A program made the position numbers and the translations under genes. This document shows positions 634 through 14,080 of a DNA stretch of 41,336 nt, piece after piece. Origin of the DNA: Defluviitaleaceae bacterium (GTDB taxonomy: Bacteria; Bacillota; Clostridia; Lachnospirales; WQUN01); the NCBI GenBank assembly GCA_009785605.1, contig WQVY01000017.1:1-41336 (forward strand), written 5' to 3'. The stretch's first letter is position 1. Every line of letters starts with the position of its first letter. The notes under the pieces were generated by a model. That model had not been told where the DNA came from and searched no databases. It saw only the letters and a list, made by a program, of their open reading frames with translations.

Positions 634-3483
634 CTACAAAACTTCTCGCAAGAACATGCCGGTAAACGAATCTTCGCACATGGCTACTTCTTCTGGTGTG
701 CCGCAGGCCACTATTTGCCCGCCTCCGCGCCCACCTTCGGGGCCAAGGTCAATAATATAGTCGGCGGTTTTTATCATATCCAGGTTATGCTCTATTACTA
801 CTACGGTGTTGCCCCAGTCTGTAAGTTTTTGTAAGATTTCTATTAGCCGGTGCACGTCGGCGGCGTGTAGGCCCGTGGTTGGTTCGTCTAGTACGTATAA
901 TGTCTTGCCTGTAGCGCGGCGGCTCAGTTCTGTTGCCAGTTTTACCCTCTGGGCCTCACCGCCAGATAAGGTAGTAGAAGATTGGCCAAGCTTGATGTAG
1001 CTTAGTCCTACATCAAGCAAGGTTTGTAGCTTGTCCCGTAGCTTTGGCAGGCTGCTAAAGAAATCCAGCGCGACTTCTACTGTCATATCTAGCACGTCTG
1101 ATATGGATTTGCCTTTGTATTTGACCTCCAAGGTCTCGCGGTTATAGCGCTTGCCTTGACATACCTCGCAGGGGACATATACATCTGGCAAAAAGTGCAT
1201 TTCTATTTTTATTATACCGTCTCCGCTACAGGCCTCGCATCGGCCACCTTTTATATTAAAGCTAAAGCGCCCTTTTTGGTAGCCGCGTACTTTTGCTTCA
1301 GGTACTTGTGCAAAAACATCGCGTACCAAGTCAAACAAGCCCGTGTATGTTGCTGGGTTGCTACGTGGGGTGCGCCCTATGGGGCTTTGGTCGATATTTA
1401 TGATTTTATCTAGATATTCTAGGCCTGTTATATCCTTGTGGCGGCCGGGTTTTGTTTTGGCACGATTTAAGTCCCTGGCTAAGCGCTTATATAGCACTTC
1501 GTTTACAAGGGAGCTCTTTCCGCTGCCGCTTACCCCAGTCACACATGTGAAACTTCCTATGGGTACCGCAACATCAATGTCTTGTAGGTTGTTTTCTGAC
1601 GCGCCATGTATGTGAATGCGGTTACCGTTTGACTTGCGGCGGGTGGCTGGGGTTTCAATTTTTAGCTTGCCGCTTAGATACATACCAGTAATTGATTTTT
1701 CGCATGTCATGATGTCTTTTATATGCCCCGCAAAAACTATTTCGCCGCCATGTACCCCTGCCCCAGGGCCTATGTCTACTATATAGTCCGATGCCCACAT
1801 TGTATCGGTATCGTGCTCTACTACGATAAGTGTGTTTCCTATATCAGCCAAATGCCTTAAGGTCTTTAGCAAGCGGCCATTATCGCGCTGATGAAGGCCT
1901 ATGCTGGGCTCATCTAGTATATATACCACGCCAACCAAGCCAGAGCCTATTTGGGTAGCCAAGCGGATACGCTGCGCCTCACCACCAGACAATGAACCTG
2001 ACGCACGAGCCAATGTTAGATAATCCAGCCCAACATCCATAAGAAAGCCTGTGCGGGCGTGGATTTCTTTAAGTATTGGGCCTGCTATTATAAGCTGGGT
2101 GGACGTGAGTTTGAGATTGATAAAAAAGTCTTGCACGTCGCCTATAGTCATATCTGTAACTTGTGATATGTTTGTGTCACCTATGGTTATGGCCAGCACT
2201 TCTGGCTTTAGGCGCCGCCCTTTGCAACTGGGGCATGGTATGCTGGTCATGAAAGCTTCGTATTCCGACCGCATATAGTTGGATGATGTTTCCTTGTACC
2301 GCCGCCACTGGTTGTTTATTATGCCTTCGTGGGTGTAAGGGTACGAGCGTGGCTTGCCATCTTGGCCGGTGTATGAGATTTGGAGTTTCTGTTTTGTACC
2401 GTAAAGTATTATTTCTTTTACTGACGCTGGCAGTTCCTCATATGGTGTATTTAAATCAAAATTAAAAGCTTCGCTAAGGGCGCGCATTATCCCGCGTGAG
2501 CCGCTGCTTTCGTCACGTATAGCGTTCCAACCCGGGGCGGCTATTGCACCTTCGGCTATAGAAAGTAATGGGTTGGGGATTACCAGCTCTGGGTCGAAGA
2601 TTAGCTTCATGCCAAGGCCGGCGCAATCTTGACACGCGCCAGAGGGATTGTTAAATGAGAACATCCTGGGCTCGACTTCAGACAGGCTAATACCGCAATC
2701 TGGGCAAGAAAAATTTTGGCTGAAGGGGATGTCTTCTGTTGCGGATTCGCCTTCTGGTTTAACAGATTGCACGTTTACCACCAGCAGCCCATTTGTTAGT
2801 TGCATCGCTGCTTCTATGGACTCGGATAGGCGTTTTTGGATGCCTTCACGCACAACCAAGCGGTCTATTACTATGTCTATGTCATGTTTCTTGTTTTTGT
2901 CTAGCTGGGCAGTCTCGCCTAGGTCGTAGATTATCCCGTCTATACGGGCGCGTACGTAGCCACTGCGGCGTGCGTCATCCAGTAGCTTTGTGTGCTCACC
3001 CTTGCGCCCGCGTACTACAGGCGAAAGTACTTGAAGCCGCGAACCTTCTGGTAAGGACAGAACCCTATCTACAATTTGGTCAACTGTTTGCCGTTCTACA
3101 ACTTTGCCGCATAGGTGACAATGAGGTATCCCTACCCGTGCAAAAAGAAGGCGTAGATAGTCATATATTTCTGTAACCGTACCCACGGTAGAGCGCGGGT
3201 TTTGGCTTGTGGTTTTTTGGTCAATGGAAATGGCTGGGCTTAGGCCTTCTATAAAGTCCACATCTGGCTTTTCCATTTGCCCTAAGAATTGACGGGCATA
3301 GGCAGATAATGACTCTACATATCGCCGCTGCCCTTCGGCATAAATCGTGTCGAAGGCAAGCGAGGTCTTGCCAGAGCCGCTAAGGCCGGTAAAAACCACT
3401 AACTGGTTGCGCGGTATTTCTAAATCTATATTTTTTAGGTTGTTACCCCGTGCGCCTTTGATTACGATTTTGTCTATGTTCAT
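634..3483 (-). CDS. uvrA: Excinuclease ABC subunit UvrA
   Basis: UvrA is the damage-recognition ATPase of nucleotide excision repair; it dimerises and loads UvrB onto DNA in the cytoplasm. The 949 residues match the family's usual length (about 940). Visible features are the first Walker A GLSGSGKT (residues 33-40), a CxxC zinc module near residue 260 (CPDC then CQDC), signature [11 protein letters not shown], a second Walker [10 protein letters not shown], the C-terminal zinc module CEAC...CEVC, and the second signature [11 protein letters not shown] followed by VLDEPTTGL. The start ATG has an AAAGGGG SD and its own promoter just upstream. uvrB and uvrC are not in the window, and no terminator is visible after the stop. 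I see no clear LexA box in the 104-bp upstream gap. Confidence 0.98.
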
Positions 3484-6481: not shown

Positions 6482-6550
6482 GGGGGACCAGATGAAAATG
6501 GCGTTGCCGTTTTTGTCTGGCTTTGTGCAAATCCCAGAATGGAGATTGTC

Positions 6551-7132
6551 ATGTGGATATATGAAAAGAAGCTGGAGTACCCGGTCAAAATCAAAAGAAC
6601 CAACCCTAAGTTGGCTAAAATAATAATTGCGCAATACGGAGGCCCAGACGGCGAACTGGGCGCAGCACTAAGATACCTAAGCCAGCGCTTTACAATGGTG
6701 ACACCTCAGGCCATAGCAACATTAAACGATATAGGCACCGAGGAGTTAGCACACCTAGAAATGATAGGCACAATATGCCACCAGCTAATAGACAAAGCCA
6801 CCCCAGAACAAATGCGCGAGGCTGGCATGGATGCAGAATATGTAAATCATGGGCTGGGAATCCACCCATCTGGTGCTGGCGGCGCACCATGGACCGCAGC
6901 CTATATACAGTCCAAAGGCGACCCGATAACGGACTTATACGAAAATCTTGCCGCAGAACAGAAAGCCCGCAGCACGTACGAATACCTGCTAGACTTGATA
7001 GATGACCCAGATGTTGCCGACCCTATAAGGTTTTTACGTGAGCGGGAGGTTGTGCATTTTCAGAGGTTTGGGGAGAGCTTGAATATCGTGCGGGATTATC
7101 TTGGTAGTAAGCGGATGTTCTACGGGAAATAG
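6551..7132 (+). CDS. cotJC: Spore coat protein CotJC, manganese-catalase family
   Basis: CotJC is a ferritin-like di-manganese protein of the spore coat related to Mn catalases. From MWIYEKKLEYPV the protein has 193 residues, close to the Bacillus length. Glu and His ligands are visible in GTEELAHLEMIGTI, and the GPDGELGAALRYLSQRF segment is typical. The C-terminal REREVVHFQRFGE supplies further ligands. I chose ATG 6551 because it follows GGAG at 6541-6544 and fits the family; ATG 6539 would place that SD inside the gene. The 69 bp after cotJB hold no credible separate gene. A strong terminator ends the operon. Confidence 0.93.
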   Translation: MWIYEKKLEYPVKIKRTNPKLAKIIIAQYGGPDGELGAALRYLSQRFTMVTPQAIATLNDIGTEELAHLEMIGTICHQLIDKATPEQMREAGMDAEYVNHGLGIHPSGAGGAPWTAAYIQSKGDPITDLYENLAAEQKARSTYEYLLDLIDDPDVADPIRFLREREVVHFQRFGESLNIVRDYLGSKRMFYGK

Positions 7133-7150
7133 CAGTAAAATCTGCAACAG

Positions 7151-7191
7151 AAAACAGCCGTTGGAGAGTGTGTCACCAACGGCTGTTTTTG
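7151..7191 (+). terminator. Terminator of the cotJ operon
   Basis: AAAACAGCCGTTGG and CCAACGGCTGTTTT form a perfect 14-bp stem with an 11-base loop, followed by TTTTTGTTGTTATTTT. The A-rich 5' arm means it could also work for minus-strand transcripts coming from 7211-7516. Confidence 0.92.
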
Positions 7192-7210
7192 TTGTTATTT
7201 TAGTGCCAGA

Positions 7211-7516
7211 CTAGTCATCAGACACATTAGTAATCCCTTTGCTCGTCACAACAAGCGCATCAGTGGATGTAGTCTCACCAAATCGCCAATTTTCGCTATG
7301 TCCAGAGCCATCAGCAAAGAACTCAAGTGCAAAGTCATTTTCAAATCCAATGGTCAAATCACCAAATCTGCCCACTCTTACGTATTTTACAATATAATCG
7401 CTAAAATCACCTCGAAAGTGTTTGTGAAGCAAATCATCGAAAAGCGTGTTGCCATGGGTTTGCCAGTCGAAGTTACTTTCATTAAAGCCTTCTTTGATAG
7501 CTAGATTTCTAATTTC
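7211..7516 (-). pseudogene. Short unknown ORF, probably 5'-truncated
   Basis: A minus-strand frame of about 100 codons runs from just after a TAA (7517-7519) to the stop at 7211. It reads like a real protein: IKEGFNESNFDW, then VGRFGDLTIGFEND, LEFFADGSG and NWRFGE, then LVVTSKGI. The pattern GDLxIxF...ExFxDxS...WRF recalls the C-terminal half of small stand-alone proteins found in Firmicutes, some encoded near toxin genes, but I do not name the family. There is no ATG. AAGGAG lies 9 nt before an ATT (7511-7513), and the first TTG (7432) has no SD. Either it starts at ATT or, more likely, its N-terminal half has been lost. It faces the cotJ terminator. Confidence 0.5.
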
Positions 7517-7657
7517 TTATTGCTCCTTACCGGCGGTGGCGGAAACATAGCACAGATGTTGATATTTGCTGCTTCTGGTACAATGCTTGCAAGCCTGGCA
7601 ATAATAATGCTTATAGTCAATAATAAAATACGTAAGCGTAAAAATACTGAAGCATAA
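7505..7657 (+). pseudogene. Remnant resembling a C-terminal cell-wall sorting signal
   Basis: The plus frame from 7505 reads LLLLTGGGGNIAQ, then a hydrophobic helix (MLIFAASGTMLASLAIIMLI), then the charged tail NNKIRKRKN and a stop at 7657. TGG plus a membrane span plus a basic tail is the layout of an LPXTG-type anchor with the LP lost. The only start inside is ATG 7556, which would give a 33-residue single-span peptide with a poor SD (GGCGGA). I read it as the tail of a lost surface protein, though a functional micropeptide is possible. Confidence 0.35.
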
Positions 7658-7693
7658 CAAAATCAAATTATATAATTGAACATCGATATCATC

Positions 7694-7730
7694 AAAAGAA
7701 GCCTCCGGAGTTACGGATGGCTTCTTTTTG
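7694..7730 (+). terminator. Intrinsic terminator after the 7505-7657 remnant
   Basis: AAAAGAAGCC with TCCG pairs with CGGA and GGCTTCTTTTT (one bulged base), followed by GG. It is a strong hairpin with a U-rich end on the plus strand. It separates the debris from the ATPase-TPR cassette. Confidence 0.8.
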
Positions 7731-7755
7731 GTTAGAATCAAAGTAGAGAAATCCA

Positions 7756-7818: not shown

Positions 7819-9138
7819 ATGGCACTATTTAAAGAAAAACAAAAACGCGTTGAGTTGACTGATGGGCTACGTGCCGCGATAAAAACTTTCCAGCCCGAGC
7901 CATTGGATGAAGATAACTTTGATGCCTTTTACAATGCCAATACCATGGTTATACGTACAGGCAACGAATATATCACCCCCCTGGGAGATATTTTCGACGA
8001 CTGTACAACACCTTTAAACAGAAATGCACATTTGCTGTCAGGCCACAGGGGGTGTGGGAAAAGTACAGAGCTTTATTCTCTGAAGCTGCGGCTTGAAGAA
8101 GAAGGTCACCCCGTTTGTATGATTGATTGTCAATCTGAAATGAATTTGAATTTGGCTGACTGTTGGGACATTATGCTTTTTATCACAGAAGGCTTATGCC
8201 GCATTGCTGATATATATAACATTGAGCTTGATCAAGGTCTGGTTAGTGACATATACAACTACATCCTACAAGATAGTGAAATTACAAGTGAGTTTACAGA
8301 TTCTAGGGATATTAATGTTGGGCTAACCTTAAACTTGATTGCTTCCATCAAAGGAGGCTTGCAAATGGGTGATACCCAGCGTACTACATTAAAAACAAAG
8401 ATGGAGAAACGAGGCGCCGATTGGAAGCGCTATGTTAATGAAATTTCTGATGTCATTACTGAAGCTATGCAAGGCCGCCAGCCAATTTTGATTTTTGAAG
8501 ATATGGATAAAATCCAACCTTTCCATAGGGCTTTGGATATTTTTATGTATGATACCCTGGCCAAAATGCCGTTTCCTATAATATATACCTTTCCCATTGC
8601 TGAAATATATAGCTCTAAATTTGCAGCCCTTAAAGGTTTATATAAAACTCATGTGTTGCCTATGATTAAAGTCCACAATGCAGATAAATCTGAACACACA
8701 GCCGGAATAGCAGTCATAGAGGAAATTGTGGGAAAGAGAGCTGACATAGGATTTTTTGACGAAAATGCACTGCGGTTATTGGTAGAGCAGACAGGTGGAG
8801 CATTGCGCCACCTGTTTGAGTGTATCCTTACGGCCTGCCGTATAGCAATAAGACGAGGTAGCGAAAAAATTGAGATAGATGATGCCAAAATAGCCCTTGA
8901 GCGATTGACAAGTGAGCTTACTAGGTCGATATCCATAGCCGACAATGAAGTACTTACTAACATTTACAATAGCATCAACCATAGAAAGCAATTAGAGGAC
9001 ACGACCACTGTACTAGAGCATATGCACAGCTTGGTTGTACTAGAATACCAAAATGGAGAACGTTGGCATGATTTGCACCCGTTGGTTGTTGCTTTTTTAA
9101 AGGATAGAGGTATCTTTGATGTCCCAAAAAAAGATTGA
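7819..9138 (+). CDS. P-loop ATPase, split NLR/STAND-like partner of the TPR protein
   Basis: The cytoplasmic ATPase has 439 residues from ATG 7819 (MALFKEK). The start follows GAAAGG; the longer frame from 7756 has no SD and overlaps the likely promoter. Walker A is GHRGCGKST (75-83). Walker B is PILIFEDMDK (222-231), with an acidic ED pair. FPIIYTFPI (252-260) occupies the sensor-1 strand position. After about residue 390 comes a helical and winged-helix-like segment ending in WHDLHPLVVAFL. There is no HNH, nuclease, TIR or protease motif. It overlaps the next gene by 20 bp, so the two proteins are made together. The fold is AAA+/STAND type, but I cannot name a family. The partner and isolated setting suggest a sensing or defence role, which is inference. 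Confidence 0.72.
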   Translation: MALFKEKQKRVELTDGLRAAIKTFQPEPLDEDNFDAFYNANTMVIRTGNEYITPLGDIFDDCTTPLNRNAHLLSGHRGCGKSTELYSLKLRLEEEGHPVCMIDCQSEMNLNLADCWDIMLFITEGLCRIADIYNIELDQGLVSDIYNYILQDSEITSEFTDSRDINVGLTLNLIASIKGGLQMGDTQRTTLKTKMEKRGADWKRYVNEISDVITEAMQGRQPILIFEDMDKIQPFHRALDIFMYDTLAKMPFPIIYTFPIAEIYSSKFAALKGLYKTHVLPMIKVHNADKSEHTAGIAVIEEIVGKRADIGFFDENALRLLVEQTGGALRHLFECILTACRIAIRRGSEKIEIDDAKIALERLTSELTRSISIADNEVLTNIYNSINHRKQLEDTTTVLEHMHSLVVLEYQNGERWHDLHPLVVAFLKDRGIFDVPKKD

Positions 9139-10522
9139 TAACACAGAAGCTTTTTTTGCGCTAAGCTGGATAATAAGTGATGCCGATAAAGGGCTTTATA
9201 TTGTAGTAGCGCCTTCTCATATGCAAAAAGATATAGCAATACGCTATAAAACTCAAAGGGTTGGTGTGTATGACTTTGCTCAGGTTGACGGCTATTCCTA
9301 TACCAATATAAATGCCTGGGTGGATTCGCGGCCAGAAGGTACAGATATTTTGTTTTTACTAAACATGCAAGTTGCCCTGTGTGACAAGGAAGCCATGGCT
9401 GCATTTAATATGAGCCGGGATTTGCTTGCAAAAAAGAAAAAAATCTGGATTTTCTTTATGGACAAAGACTTGGAATATCAAATATCCACCTTTGCCTATG
9501 ATGTTTATGCTTATGTAAGGCAGAAGATTTATTTTGAAGCAGAGCTGGACGAAGATTTTGATGGAAAGCAGATTCTTGAATTTGATGGCCGCCACAATGT
9601 ACTACAGATTCAAGAGACATTGACGCGAAGTATGGATTTGGAAGGCCGCTATATGTCTCTACCAATTGAGGGAACCGCTACAAACCAGTTGCTTTCGGCG
9701 GCAATGGCGCTTACGAATATAGCTGTGCTTTATAATGACTGTGCTGAGTATGATAACGCATTAATATTACTAATGAAGGTAAAAGAAATCCGTGAGCAGG
9801 TACTAAAAATAGACCACCCCGATATTGCCGGGACATACAATACTATTGCTGTTATATATAGTCGTAAAGGTGAATACCACAAGGCTTTAAAGTGGCATCA
9901 ACAGGCTTTAGACATTACTAAAAAGATGTTAGGTAAAGAGCATCCTACTACGGCTACAATATATCATAACATTGCGAGAGTATACGTGATGCAAGGTGAT
10001 TATGATAAGGCTCACGAGTTGCTACAGGAAGCGTTGGATATTTCTATAAAAATGCGTGGCAAAGATCATCCAAACACTGCTTTTATATACAGTGGCATAG
10101 CATCTGTATACACTAGGCAAAAAGATTACAAAAAAGCTCTAGAGTTATATCAACAAACGCTGGATATCCGCGAACAAATGCTAGGCAAAGACCACCCACT
10201 TACAGCAGTGACATATAATGACATTGCAATAGTATATGAAAGTCAAGAAAATTACAGTAAGGCCCTAGAATTATATCAAAAAGCGTTGGATGTCTACAAT
10301 AATACGCTAGGCCAAGAGCATCCATACGCAGCCACCACCTACTCTAACATTGCGAGTGTGTATCACAATCGAGGTGACTATAACAAAGCTCTCGAGTTTT
10401 ATCAAAAAGCTTATACTATACGTCTTCGCAAGCTAGGCGAAAACCATCCTTCTACAAAAGTTATTGAAGATAGCATACAACGAGTAACTGCTCTAATATC
10501 AAAAAACCAAAACCCCAATTGA
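9119..10522 (+). CDS. Six-repeat TPR protein with an unknown N-terminal domain
   Basis: The protein has 467 residues and starts at ATG 9119 inside the end of the ATPase gene. Residues 1-180 form an alpha/beta-looking domain I do not recognise, with SWIISDADKGLYIVVAPS, VGVYDFAQVD, DILFLLNMQVAL and KIWIFFMDKD. Its alternating strands suggest a Rossmann-like or P-loop-like fold without a Walker A. Residues 200-460 are kinesin-light-chain-type TPRs. The marker (K/Q/E/I)(D/E/N)HP recurs at 231, 273, 315, 357, 399 and 441, exactly 42 residues apart. Each unit has YxxIAxVY then YxKALELYQxALDI. Such arrays bind peptides or oligomerise; in NLR-like proteins they form the sensor end. A strong terminator follows 50 bp after the stop. 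Confidence 0.8.
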   Translation: MSQKKIDNTEAFFALSWIISDADKGLYIVVAPSHMQKDIAIRYKTQRVGVYDFAQVDGYSYTNINAWVDSRPEGTDILFLLNMQVALCDKEAMAAFNMSRDLLAKKKKIWIFFMDKDLEYQISTFAYDVYAYVRQKIYFEAELDEDFDGKQILEFDGRHNVLQIQETLTRSMDLEGRYMSLPIEGTATNQLLSAAMALTNIAVLYNDCAEYDNALILLMKVKEIREQVLKIDHPDIAGTYNTIAVIYSRKGEYHKALKWHQQALDITKKMLGKEHPTTATIYHNIARVYVMQGDYDKAHELLQEALDISIKMRGKDHPNTAFIYSGIASVYTRQKDYKKALELYQQTLDIREQMLGKDHPLTAVTYNDIAIVYESQENYSKALELYQKALDVYNNTLGQEHPYAATTYSNIASVYHNRGDYNKALEFYQKAYTIRLRKLGENHPSTKVIEDSIQRVTALISKNQNPN

Positions 10523-10571
10523 TTCAAGTCATTAGCACACTGTCATGAGTATCATAACATCACCATACAAC

Positions 10572-10613
10572 CAGCCGCCAAACGGGTACAATAGCCCACA
10601 AGGCGGCTGTTTT
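10572..10613 (+). terminator. Terminator of the ATPase-TPR cassette
   Basis: CAGCCGCC and GGCGGCTG form a perfect 8-bp GC-rich stem with a 22-base loop, followed by TTTTGC. Confidence 0.8.
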
Positions 10614-10660
10614 GCTAATATTTATTGTTATGATACAACCGTAATAATAAACCCAGCAAT

Positions 10661-10689: not shown

Positions 10690-10724
10690 TTATGCGAAGA
10701 TACCATAGCGAAAGGATGACCACT

Positions 10725-11144
10725 ATGGCAGAGAGCAAGCGCCGTTTGTACAAGGTTTTATTTATTGCTATCACTATTGTGGTTGTTGCATTGCTTGCTG
10801 TGGTCGTATTTGTGGATGCGCGTAATGAGACACCACATGAGTTAGATTGTTGTTACATAAATGTTGGTTATTTTGCTGTGGATGAGGCACTTGGGGGTTA
10901 TTATGGTGTTGCATATGCCCCTATGTACTATCTACCATATGAAGGGGATGCCAACTGCTGCGCTCCTTCTTGTTGCACTTTTTCTAGTGATTTGTCATGC
11001 TGTACATATACGCTTGCATCGCTGTATTATGCACATGGTTGTCAAATATTTGCGGAGTTCTTGGGTGTTAGTAAGGATGCCTCACAAACTCTCAAAGACT
11101 ATATATCATGTATTTACAAACCTCCTAAAATTGTAAACGCATAA
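10725..11144 (+). CDS. Cys-rich membrane-anchored protein of unknown function
   Basis: I do not recognise this 139-residue protein. It has a basic N terminus (KRRLYK), one membrane helix (about 10-30, FIAITIVVVALLAVVVFV) and an outside domain of about 108 residues. That domain holds ten cysteines, eight of them as four CC pairs (42-43, 78-79, 83-84, 92-93) plus C106 and C129. Tyr and Ala are frequent (GGYYGVAYAPMYYLPY). ATG 10725 was chosen because AAAGGA lies 8 nt before it; ATGs at 10692 and 10716 lack an SD. It is first in an operon with a tandem DUF4418 protein and an FtsX/ATPase exporter, and both of those also have paired or conserved outside cysteines. A disulfide, metal or redox role is therefore plausible but unproven. 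Confidence 0.6.
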   Translation: MAESKRRLYKVLFIAITIVVVALLAVVVFVDARNETPHELDCCYINVGYFAVDEALGGYYGVAYAPMYYLPYEGDANCCAPSCCTFSSDLSCCTYTLASLYYAHGCQIFAEFLGVSKDASQTLKDYISCIYKPPKIVNA

Positions 11145-11212
11145 GAAATCATAACCATGCTTAGATGGCATGGTATTAATTTGTGTGTTTGCAACTATTT
11201 AGGAGGTTTTTT

Positions 11213-12136
11213 GTGAAAAATAATTCTTTGGCTTCTACGGTTGTTGGATGTATTTTTGTTGCCCTTGGCCTGGTGGTTTTAATAGGGTTGTTTACATTTG
11301 CGGTGCCGTGTACACGTTTGCTTGATAGTGGTGTCGCGACACGGTGTTTTTCTAATGCACTGGTGGCACGTGGTTTTGCTGTTATTGTTATGGTACTTGG
11401 TGTTCTTATTATTGTATTTCGCAACTCTGAGCAATGGTTGAAAGGCTTGAGCATAATAGTTTTCTTTATTGGCCTTGTCCTGGTTGTGGGTGCTGTGGCT
11501 ACAGATATGTGCAATGTACGCACACATACGTTATCTGTTGGCGAAACACCAACTCAAGACAACCGTCACATGCATAGGGGTGTACTGGAAACAGACGAGA
11601 ATGTGTATGTAGTGTGGACTAATTTTGACTGCAACACCGGGCCGTTTGTACCTTTTGTGGCGTATATGGGTGCTGTTATTTCTGTTGTGTCTGCATTGTT
11701 TGCGTTTTTTGTTAATACTACTGTGCTAAGTGTTAAGCCGTCTTTCAAGACTATAGGCAGTGGGTTTGTTGCTTTGGGTGCGCTTACAATACTTGGGTTG
11801 GCTACATTTGCTGCACCTTGCCATGACTTGGCTGGGGCTACGTTGTTGCCTATGTTTATGCGCTGCTATGATGTGGCAATACACGTCCGTGGTATGGCCG
11901 CTGTGGCTGTTGTGGCTGGGGTGCTTATGATTTTATATTCTGGCGCAGTTGCTTTCCACAAGGGGCTTAATGTATCAGTGATGCTGCTTAGTGTATTAAT
12001 GATTATAACCCCACTTATAACAGAAACTTGCGGGGCATTAACAATGGTATGTAATACAGGGCTACTTACCCCATTTGTAACGGTTATGGGTATCCTTATG
12101 CTGGTTGCATCGGCTATAATACATTTGTATTATTAA
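11213..12136 (+). CDS. Tandem DUF4418 integral membrane protein
   Basis: The start is GTG 11213 with a strong SD (AGGAGG, 11201-11206), giving 307 residues. Two homologous halves are visible. Each has a helix ending FTFAVPC or ATFAAPC, then RC(F/Y) before an ARG/VRG-led helix containing VLGVLIIVF or VAGVLMILY, then T(D/E)xC, then CNTG...PFV..MG and a last helix. Most DUF4418 proteins have one such unit of about 120 residues, so this is an internal duplication. The first half also carries an outside loop of about 40 residues (THTLSVGETPTQDN). Four cysteines are conserved per half. DUF4418 genes commonly sit beside FtsX-type ABC exporters, as here; their function is unknown. Confidence 0.78.
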   Translation: MKNNSLASTVVGCIFVALGLVVLIGLFTFAVPCTRLLDSGVATRCFSNALVARGFAVIVMVLGVLIIVFRNSEQWLKGLSIIVFFIGLVLVVGAVATDMCNVRTHTLSVGETPTQDNRHMHRGVLETDENVYVVWTNFDCNTGPFVPFVAYMGAVISVVSALFAFFVNTTVLSVKPSFKTIGSGFVALGALTILGLATFAAPCHDLAGATLLPMFMRCYDVAIHVRGMAAVAVVAGVLMILYSGAVAFHKGLNVSVMLLSVLMIITPLITETCGALTMVCNTGLLTPFVTVMGILMLVASAIIHLYY

Positions 12137-12145
12137 AAACGAAAG

Positions 12146-13387
12146 ATGGTGATGAGGATTAATAATCATAAAGACACTGCAAATAAACCACTCACAACTC
12201 TTAGGATTGCTTTTAACAACCTGTGCGGCAAGCCTGGGAGGGCGGTAGCTCTTGTTACTATTGTTGCGATTATGGCCTTTGTCTTGTTTGGGGGGGCGAT
12301 ACTTTCCCGCGGGCTAGACAATGGGATGCGGAGCCTGGAGGCACGCCTTGGCGCAGATATAATTATTGTGCCCCAAGACAGCGAAGACGACTACGAAAGT
12401 CTTATTGTTGACGGCGAACCCACTGGTTTTTACCTTGATATGAGTGTTAAGGACTATATTTCTCAAATGGAGGGAGTTGGGCAAGTCACGAGCCAGTTTT
12501 TCTTGGCAACGCTTGGGGGTGGGTCTTGCTGTACAGCTTCAGCGCAGGTTATTGGCATCGACTACGAGACGGACTTTGTAATAATGCCGTGGGTTTCGCA
12601 GTTACTCAACCGCAACATTGGCGATGGTGAAGTTATTGTTGGCAGCGGTGTTAGTATAAATTACGATAATACTATATTGCTTTTTGATGTACTGTACCCT
12701 GTTGCGGCAAGGCTGGAGCATTCGTCTACAGGTATGGACAATACAATTTATGTAAGTATAAATACCATGCGAGACATGGCAAGGGATGCGCAAGCCCTTG
12801 GCGGCTTCCCTTATGATGTGGATATAGACAGGTCTGTATCTGCGATACTTGTGGATGTAGCACCTGGCTATGAGATAAACCTGGTTGCGCGGGTTATGCG
12901 ATGGGATATACCTGGTATTTCGGTGGTCGAAAGTTATGGTATTTATACAAATGTCGCGTCGGGATTGCGCTTTATTACTGGGGTTATTGGTACTATATCT
13001 GTTGTGCTTGGCGTTACGGTTATTGTTGTCTTGTTTGTGCTTTTCTCCCTTACTATAAGCGGAAGGAAGAAAGAGTTTGCGATACTGCGCATCTTGGGTG
13101 CAACCCGCACAAAGTTGGCCGGCATAGTATTAACAGAGGCGCTTGACCTTAGCCTTCTGGGCGCGTTTTTGGGCTGTGCCCTTTCTGTGCTTGTGGTATT
13201 CCCCTTTGGGCGACATATTGGTATGCAGATGGGTATGCCGCTTTTGCTGCCCGGTGTTGGTGACTCTTTGAGGCTTCTTGCCATTGCTTTGGCTGTGTCT
13301 GTTGCGGTTGGGCCCATATCCTCGGCTTATTCTGCATACAAGATAAGCCGCGCAGAAACTTATGCAACAATGAGAGAAGGCGAATAG
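12146..13387 (+). CDS. FtsX/MacB-type ABC transporter permease
   Basis: The 413-residue permease has the MacB/LolC layout. One helix (about 33-54) is followed by a large outside domain (55-270), then three helices (about 278-303, 328-350, 372-395) around the FtsX core FAILRILGATRTKL. The outside domain carries GGGSCC (C128, C129), a cysteine pair that echoes the Cys-rich protein at 10725 and is not usual for LolC/MacB. ABC proteins of this type use ATP to move or release substrates at the outer membrane face rather than pumping ions. It lies 9 bp after DUF4418 and 12-24 bp before its ATPase. The substrate is unknown. Confidence 0.88.
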   Translation: MVMRINNHKDTANKPLTTLRIAFNNLCGKPGRAVALVTIVAIMAFVLFGGAILSRGLDNGMRSLEARLGADIIIVPQDSEDDYESLIVDGEPTGFYLDMSVKDYISQMEGVGQVTSQFFLATLGGGSCCTASAQVIGIDYETDFVIMPWVSQLLNRNIGDGEVIVGSGVSINYDNTILLFDVLYPVAARLEHSSTGMDNTIYVSINTMRDMARDAQALGGFPYDVDIDRSVSAILVDVAPGYEINLVARVMRWDIPGISVVESYGIYTNVASGLRFITGVIGTISVVLGVTVIVVLFVLFSLTISGRKKEFAILRILGATRTKLAGIVLTEALDLSLLGAFLGCALSVLVVFPFGRHIGMQMGMPLLLPGVGDSLRLLAIALAVSVAVGPISSAYSAYKISRAETYATMREGE

Positions 13388-13411
13388 TAAAGCCTTGGGA
13401 TGGAGACTAAC

Positions 13412-14080
13412 GTGAAAATAGAAATAAAAAGCTTAGTAAAAGAATACAAGCAGGGCGACCAAACAATATCAGCGCTAAAAAAGGTTAACCTTACAATAAC
13501 CAGCGGTGAGTTTTATAGTATCACTGGGCGCTCTGGCAGTGGGAAAACCACGCTTTTAAATATTGTTGCGGGGCTTACCACCCCCACGTCTGGTAATGTG
13601 CTTTTGGATGGGAAAGACATATTTACCCTTTCGGACTCGGCCCTTTCTTTGTACAGGAATGCCACAATTGGCTGTGTTATGCAGCAGCATAGCGTACTTG
13701 CAAACCTGACAGTGCTGGACAATGTGCGGCTGCCCTTTCACTTAGCAAAGCGTGAAGGCGACTCTGCCAAGGAAGCATACAGACTGCTATCACTTATGGG
13801 TATAGAAGACTTGGCCAAGCGAATGCCAAAGCGCCTTTCGGGCGGGCAAATTAAGCGTGTTGTTATAGCGCGGGCATTGATAAACAAGCCCATGCTACTG
13901 CTGGCCGACGAGCCCACAGGCGACCTAGACTCGCATACAACAAAAGAAATCATGCAAACCCTAAAAACCGTGGCAAGTGAAGGGACAGCAATATTAATGG
14001 TGACCCACGACCACGACGCTAACGAATACGCAAGCACCCACTTTAGCATGAATGATGGGGCACTTAAACGGCTTAGCTAG
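13412..14080 (+). CDS. ABC transporter ATP-binding protein, MacB/LolD type
   Basis: This is the cytoplasmic ATPase of the preceding FtsX permease. Numbering from the upstream ATG 13400 (226 residues): Walker A GRSGSGKT (43-50), Q-loop VMQQHS, signature LSGGQIKR (146-153), Walker B MLLLADEPTGDLD, and H-loop VTHDHD (H203). GTG 13412 is preferred because GGAG lies 6 nt before it, while ATG 13400 has no SD; the difference is four residues. The signature reads IKR rather than the usual QQR, a minor variation. It ends 22 bp before the convergent FAD gene, and no terminator hairpin is obvious in that gap. Confidence 0.93.
   Translation: MKIEIKSLVKEYKQGDQTISALKKVNLTITSGEFYSITGRSGSGKTTLLNIVAGLTTPTSGNVLLDGKDIFTLSDSALSLYRNATIGCVMQQHSVLANLTVLDNVRLPFHLAKREGDSAKEAYRLLSLMGIEDLAKRMPKRLSGGQIKRVVIARALINKPMLLLADEPTGDLDSHTTKEIMQTLKTVASEGTAILMVTHDHDANEYASTHFSMNDGALKRLS

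Follow-up and report, generated by a model that had tools for sequence, protein, structure and literature searches.

A two-gene ATPase and candidate pseudo-ATPase module with an exchangeable sensor in a Defluviitaleaceae genome and in scattered other bacteria

The nSTAND2 two-gene conflict system is a mobile operon that encodes an active STAND-type NTPase together with an eroded one, for which a hetero-multimer is predicted (Kaur et al. 2021, PMC8195603), and is related to the CR-ATPases and Dap3 rather than to classic STAND proteins (PMC8195603). The CARD-NLR system LypAB of Caulobacter likewise has two proteins: one is an Orc1-like AAA+ ATPase, and the ATPase domain of the other lacks Walker motifs. 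It has a TPR sensor, is rare and patchily distributed, and in Caulobacter lies outside defence islands (PMC13236601). A third relevant element is iSTAND, a compact inactive P-loop domain of MoxR-vWA ternary systems and of BREX BrxB that is a proposed sensor (PMC7159879, PMC12839542). A literature search found no description of the pair of genes reported here, which lies in a stretch of 41,336 nucleotides from a Defluviitaleaceae bacterium (contig WQVY01000017.1), referred to below as the window.

The pair consists of an ATPase gene and a partner gene that share 20 nt; in the partner protein an N-terminal domain (NTD) precedes an array of TPRs. A first-pass annotation, made from the sequence alone, had described a P-loop ATPase gene overlapping a TPR gene with an N-terminal domain of ~180 residues, and the open reading frames and their overlap are confirmed. 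The features to which we refer are as follows, in positions of the window, with + denoting the forward strand.

6539-7132, intact cotJC-like manganese-catalase gene, adjoining the pair
7145-7205, hairpin 3' of this upstream cotJC-like gene (RNA fold -28.7 kcal/mol, z -6.6)
7690..7735, +, hairpin terminator 5' of the pair (RNA fold -21.7 kcal/mol, z -5.1), followed by a T run
7819..9138, +, ATPase gene, 439 aa, AAA+ of STAND/ORC type by prediction; ATG at 7819, stop at 9138
8041..8064, +, Walker A, GHRGCGKS, residues 75-82 (motif scan and alignment)
8485..8511, +, Walker B region, ILIFEDMDK, residues 223-231 (alignment and motif scan)
8794..8808, +, GGxLR motif, residues 326-330, at the place of AAA+ sensor 2
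9043..9081, +, motif EYxNGERWxDLHP, residues 409-421, conserved in 17 homologues; possible winged-helix tail
9119..10522, +, partner (TPR) gene, 467 aa; ATG at 9119, stop at 10522
9119..9571, +, NTD, residues 1-151; read from its AlphaFold model as a degenerate AAA+/P-loop fold that lacks Walker A
9698..10453, +, six kinesin-light-chain-type TPRs of 42 residues, residues 194-445
10565..10625, +, hairpin terminator 3' of the TPR gene (RNA fold -23.0 kcal/mol, z -3.9), with a T run

The annotated six repeats of exactly 42 residues are thus located at residues 194-445, and the cassette does have terminators of its own on both sides, as had been claimed. On RNA folding, 0 of 200 shuffles matched the stability of the hairpins at 7145-7205, 7690-7735 and 10565-10625; a simple terminator scan picked up none of the three, presumably because of its loop limit. 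The gene debris beside which the annotation places the cassette would lie at about 7200-7700.

To judge from its sequence and its model, the ATPase is an active AAA+ enzyme of the ORC/Cdc6 type that has kept its catalytic motifs. The Walker A pattern GHxG[CS]GK[ST] is present in all 17 homologues, among which G75, H76, G78, G80, K81, T83 and E84 are invariant, and most share an hhhh[DE]xx[DE]K region around Walker B, where relatives have D[GQ]LEK or DNLDR; the protein thus has both the Walker A and the Walker B of the P-loop NTPases to which STAND NTPases belong. The GxP of classic STAND proteins is absent, and its position is taken by GG-x-[LVI]-R, as in sensor 2 of ORC and AAA+ proteins, with G326, G327 and R330 invariant in the 17 homologues. 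Pfam yields AAA_16 and AAA_22 weakly, neither at its cut-off. In structure comparison the AlphaFold model is best matched by Aeropyrum pernix ORC2 (Z 16.6), then by Cdc6 and TnsC, with eukaryotic ORC among the matches, and its fold appears to belong to the ORC/Cdc6-TnsC-like AAA+ clade, as read from a model with an overall pLDDT of only 66.5. The winged-helix-like tail proposed for this protein fared unevenly: the EYxNGERWxDLHP motif within it is conserved, but for the greater part of residues 370-439 the model has pLDDT values under 50.

Matches of the partner protein in Pfam are to TPR_12 (2.7e-89) and TPR_10 (7.4e-73), of the kinesin-light-chain/NPHP3 type. For the first ~186 residues Pfam gave nothing even at E<=10, and a sequence search of solved structures gave chance hits only. 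An AlphaFold model of the NTD, built from seven sequences, has pLDDT values mostly of 80-92 over residues 10-143 and has helices interleaved with five strands, as a P-loop core does. Structure comparison returned AAA+ domains throughout (best Z 12.1, over 135 residues at 2.9 A), and the first five Foldseek matches comprise a bacterial origin-unwinding complex, ORC, the STAND protein Avs4 and DnaA. A motif scan found Walker A missing in 31 of 31 NTD homologues, in all of which N97 and R100 are invariant, with A126, D128 and F139 nearly so. Because an AAA+-like fold is combined with the loss of Walker A and with conserved residues, the NTD is best read as a dead AAA+-like domain. This reading rests on structure, since comparison of the ATPase and NTD profiles gave no significant sequence link (0.6% probability).

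The annotation had also suggested that the NTD might be a new effector or sensor. An effector role as a nuclease, TIR or membrane domain is not supported by the degenerate AAA+/P-loop model; with the top fold-search matches being AAA+, we rejected each of these identities, and that of a metabolic enzyme. Its remark that no known effector domain is visible holds for both window proteins, as judged by Pfam and by the NTD model.

Searches run independently with the ATPase and with the NTD converged on the same genomes: the same 10 of 38 in the host family, the same 7 of 274 gammaproteobacteria, and the same 7 records, at 10 places each, among 72,556 plasmids. Random placement would give such agreement with odds near 1 in 5e8 for the family and 1 in 2e13 for the gammaproteobacteria, values that relatedness among the genomes makes less extreme. 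When gammaproteobacteria were searched with the ATPase only, the partner was found adjoining wherever the contig extends that far, and 26 of 28 measured pairs overlap or sit within 5 nt of each other, an overlap of 4 nt being the most frequent. The ATPase and the NTD are obligate partners that pair across phyla, a conclusion that is well supported, and the proposed division of an ATPase switch and a repeat sensor over two coupled genes is upheld by co-occurrence without exception in three genome sets and by adjacent or overlapping genes across phyla. We infer that the two proteins are in physical contact.

The carriers are scattered over at least five phyla and include Clostridia, Gammaproteobacteria, KSB1, Acidobacteria (in which the NTD match is weak) and cyanobacterial plasmids. 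Closer to the window, 295 genomes of the order outside the host family gave one marginal match (E 9e-4), and 398 genomes drawn evenly from the phylum gave no copy except the window itself. The pair is neither universal nor set among conserved housekeeping genes, being present in 10 of 38 family genomes with varied neighbours. In a tree the host-family copies form one clade with two subtypes, both of which occur within one genus, and the two congeners of the window carry the subtype that it does not. One genome (G004, L036) has a pair broken in both genes, and this joint decay indicates that the system can be dispensed with. Four scans of viral contigs and one of a phage collection found no phage or viral copies. 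A related ATPase without an NTD gene occurs in Nostoc (L047, C057), where it is fused to a SAV_2336-type protein and, at this locus only, adjoins MoxR.

The repeat sensor of the partner is swappable, and may be TPR, nSTAND1 with WD40, or none. Partners end in TPRs in Clostridia, Gammaproteobacteria, KSB1 and Acidobacteria, and carry nSTAND1 and WD40 on cyanobacterial plasmids. On one Nostoc plasmid (L126:8930-10796) the NTD is a stand-alone protein of 153 aa that adjoins the ATPase and has no sensor; the same strain has further copies on three plasmids. A plasmid operon of Calothrix NIES-4101 (L048:5989-13266) encodes an ATPase, a second ATPase fused at its C-terminus to a TIR domain (TIR_2, 1.5e-33), and a partner in which nSTAND1 accompanies two NTDs. 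With two ATPases for one double-NTD partner, a 1:1 pairing of one ATPase per NTD is suggested. The WD40, the nSTAND1 and this one TIR-fused ATPase place NLR/STAND hardware among the relatives of the pair.

Within TPR arrays, units of relatives are up to 98-99% identical in DNA, and near-identical units were seen at L043:5643-7385, L075:2313-4145 and L031:9577-10917; these are a sign of recent repeat expansion, which would fit a sensor under changing demands. A tandem-repeat search on the window TPR DNA found none, and the window array has therefore not recently expanded.

In the window the pair has housekeeping and export genes for neighbours. Downstream, at 10692-14080, lies an operon-like cluster of a 150-aa ORF of no assigned family, a double DUF4418 membrane protein, an FtsX-type permease and an ABC ATPase, which together form a putative export system. 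We found no defence genes beside the pair and no defence island in the window, in which the sole PADLOC match (637-3483) is read as a housekeeping ABC-type (UvrA-like) ATPase matching generic ATPase models. On the pair, PADLOC gave generic AAA and TPR matches and no pair-specific model.

The window shares its ksgA-cotJC surroundings with genome G016, in which a different, unrelated ATPase of the AAA_14/DUF4143 type (L115:9635-11712) follows at the post-cotJC position held by the pair in the window; because this position is occupied, the comparison offers no clean empty site. The post-cotJC spot may be a site of gene exchange. We note that in relatives L117, L121, L122 and L123 the cotJC-like gene is split: its pieces are collinear and separated by 3-4 kb, and large serine recombinases lie within the gaps or adjoin them. 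By analogy, these arrangements resemble skin-type elements excised during sporulation; a literature search found no report of skin-type interruption for cotJC.

Elsewhere the neighbours of the pair vary between loci, and many or most copies lie among ordinary genes. In the host family, two copies have a serine recombinase or integrase next to them. Two species of one genus have a copy that adjoins spoIVA. Outside the family, copies adjoin type I restriction genes or, on conjugative plasmids, TIR and NB-ARC genes, or NACHT, HicAB and integrases. At one host-family locus (G022, L034:4319-9934) a Tubulin_2 protein and a vWA protein are encoded beside the pair, both kinds being parts of predicted conflict systems. 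The pair has no transposase-like gene as a conserved companion. The suggestion in the first-pass annotation that this is a mobile defence-type module emerges weakened: some copies elsewhere do stand beside recombinases, type I restriction, TIR, NB-ARC or NACHT genes, but the window has no defence neighbours and phage or viral copies are lacking.

We consider that the pair is probably a partnered ATPase/pseudo-ATPase switch, and a two-protein NTPase switch of STAND/NLR-like kind, in which the ATPase acts with a dead AAA+-like domain bearing an exchangeable sensor, is likewise a likely description. In such a switch the dead NTD would dock on the ATPase to give a mixed ATPase/pseudo-ATPase assembly, to which it might lend the invariant Arg100; binding of a ligand by the repeats would then change the state or the oligomerisation of the ATPase, and the assembly would signal to an effector, either one that is part of the complex or one with its gene at another place. 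The most likely use of the switch would be to detect an intruder or stress, as part of a conflict or cell-fate response; the output might come from an effector outside this locus, as it would from the TIR domain in the Calothrix version. An immune role is plausible and is the use that we favour, but falls somewhat short of an even chance. More tentative is a new class of split NLR-like immune receptor, with an ORC-type ATPase that works only with a pseudo-ATPase adaptor, through which TPR, WD40 or nSTAND1 modules are plugged in, and to which a TIR effector is added by way of a duplicated ATPase.

A stronger form of the switch would be an anti-phage abortive system, in which the TPRs bind a phage protein, oligomerisation of the ATPase complex follows, and the cell dies or becomes dormant through a killing activity in the complex or in a host protein. 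The Avs/NLR-like logic and the Avs4 fold match argue for it, together with the TIR-fused relative, the conjugative plasmid copies beside TIR and NB-ARC or NACHT and HicAB, the copy adjoining a type I restriction system, and the same-family copies next to a serine recombinase or integrase. However, neither window protein has an effector domain, the phages and viral contigs scanned hold no copies, and most neighbourhoods consist of ordinary genes, so that we regard this form as possible but doubtful. Housekeeping and export neighbours with no defence genes among them would suit a regulator of host physiology instead, a developmental or transcriptional protein of the MalT/AfsR type, unrelated to phage defence, with the C-terminal domain of the ATPase binding DNA; the possible winged-helix tail with its conserved HP motif, the ORC/Cdc6-like fold, and the copy adjoining spoIVA in two species of one genus point the same way. 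Such a regulator is nonetheless unlikely given its patchy presence (10 of 38 family genomes), the lack of common regulon-like neighbours, the TIR fusion and the NB-ARC, NACHT or restriction neighbours in other phyla, and the swapping of sensors and turnover of TPR arrays. Finally, with TnsC and ORC as the best structural matches of the ATPase and with integrases or recombinases near some copies, the pair might be a TnsC/ORC-like ATPase for DNA loading or DNA remodelling together with an adaptor that selects the target, either a remnant of a mobile element or in the service of one; this is very improbable, as a conserved transposase-like companion is missing and the neighbours differ from locus to locus.

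If the ATPase/pseudo-ATPase switch is correctly interpreted, it would be a case in which an NLR switch and its sensor evolve on two proteins, with a dead ATPase domain to connect them. The NTD, which has no Pfam match here, would serve as a sequence handle for finding such systems across phyla, and the two-protein complex would offer a small setting in which to learn how a pseudo-ATPase controls an AAA+ switch.

Among systems already described, the pair shares with Avs and the bacterial NACHT (NLR-related) antiphage proteins an NTPase switch and a C-terminal TPR-type sensor; those are single polypeptides with N-terminal effectors, whereas here the ATPase and the sensor are separate and no effector is present. 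Classic STAND proteins (NB-ARC, NACHT, SWACOS) unite NTPase and repeat sensor in a single chain and are reportedly defined in part by the GxP motif, a criterion attributed to Leipe et al. 2004; in contrast, the ATPase has GG-x-[LVI]-R in place of GxP in its C-terminal helical bundle, and NTPase and repeat sensor are on two polypeptides, with the repeats on the partner. Like iSTAND, the NTD is by its model a compact inactive P-loop domain without Walker motifs or a C-terminal helical bundle, but the pair is unaccompanied by MoxR, vWA or BREX genes, a MoxR-vWA couple being absent both from the window and from the surroundings of those intact pairs that were inspected, and the partner of the NTD is an ORC-like ATPase. 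With nSTAND2 it has in common two adjacent genes, one with eroded NTP-binding motifs (the NTD being P-loop-like by its model); no nSTAND2-named match is among the Pfam or NCBIfam results, in libraries that may hold no such model, and the inactive module of nSTAND2 carries GT4 or HEPN effectors, whereas here it carries TPR, WD40/nSTAND1 or nothing. The likeness to CARD-NLR LypAB lies in an ORC-like ATPase combined with a Walker-less ATPase domain, a TPR sensor, and a rare and patchy spread. There the TPRs are on the active ATPase and the dead ATPase comes with a CARD and a protease, whereas here the TPRs are on the dead ATPase; a CARD or trypsin-like protease is in neither window protein, and the adjacent genes are the cotJC-like gene and the DUF4418/FtsX/ABC cluster. 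The logic and the parts of the pair thus resemble those of nSTAND2 and CARD-NLR LypAB, and the distribution of the parts differs from both.
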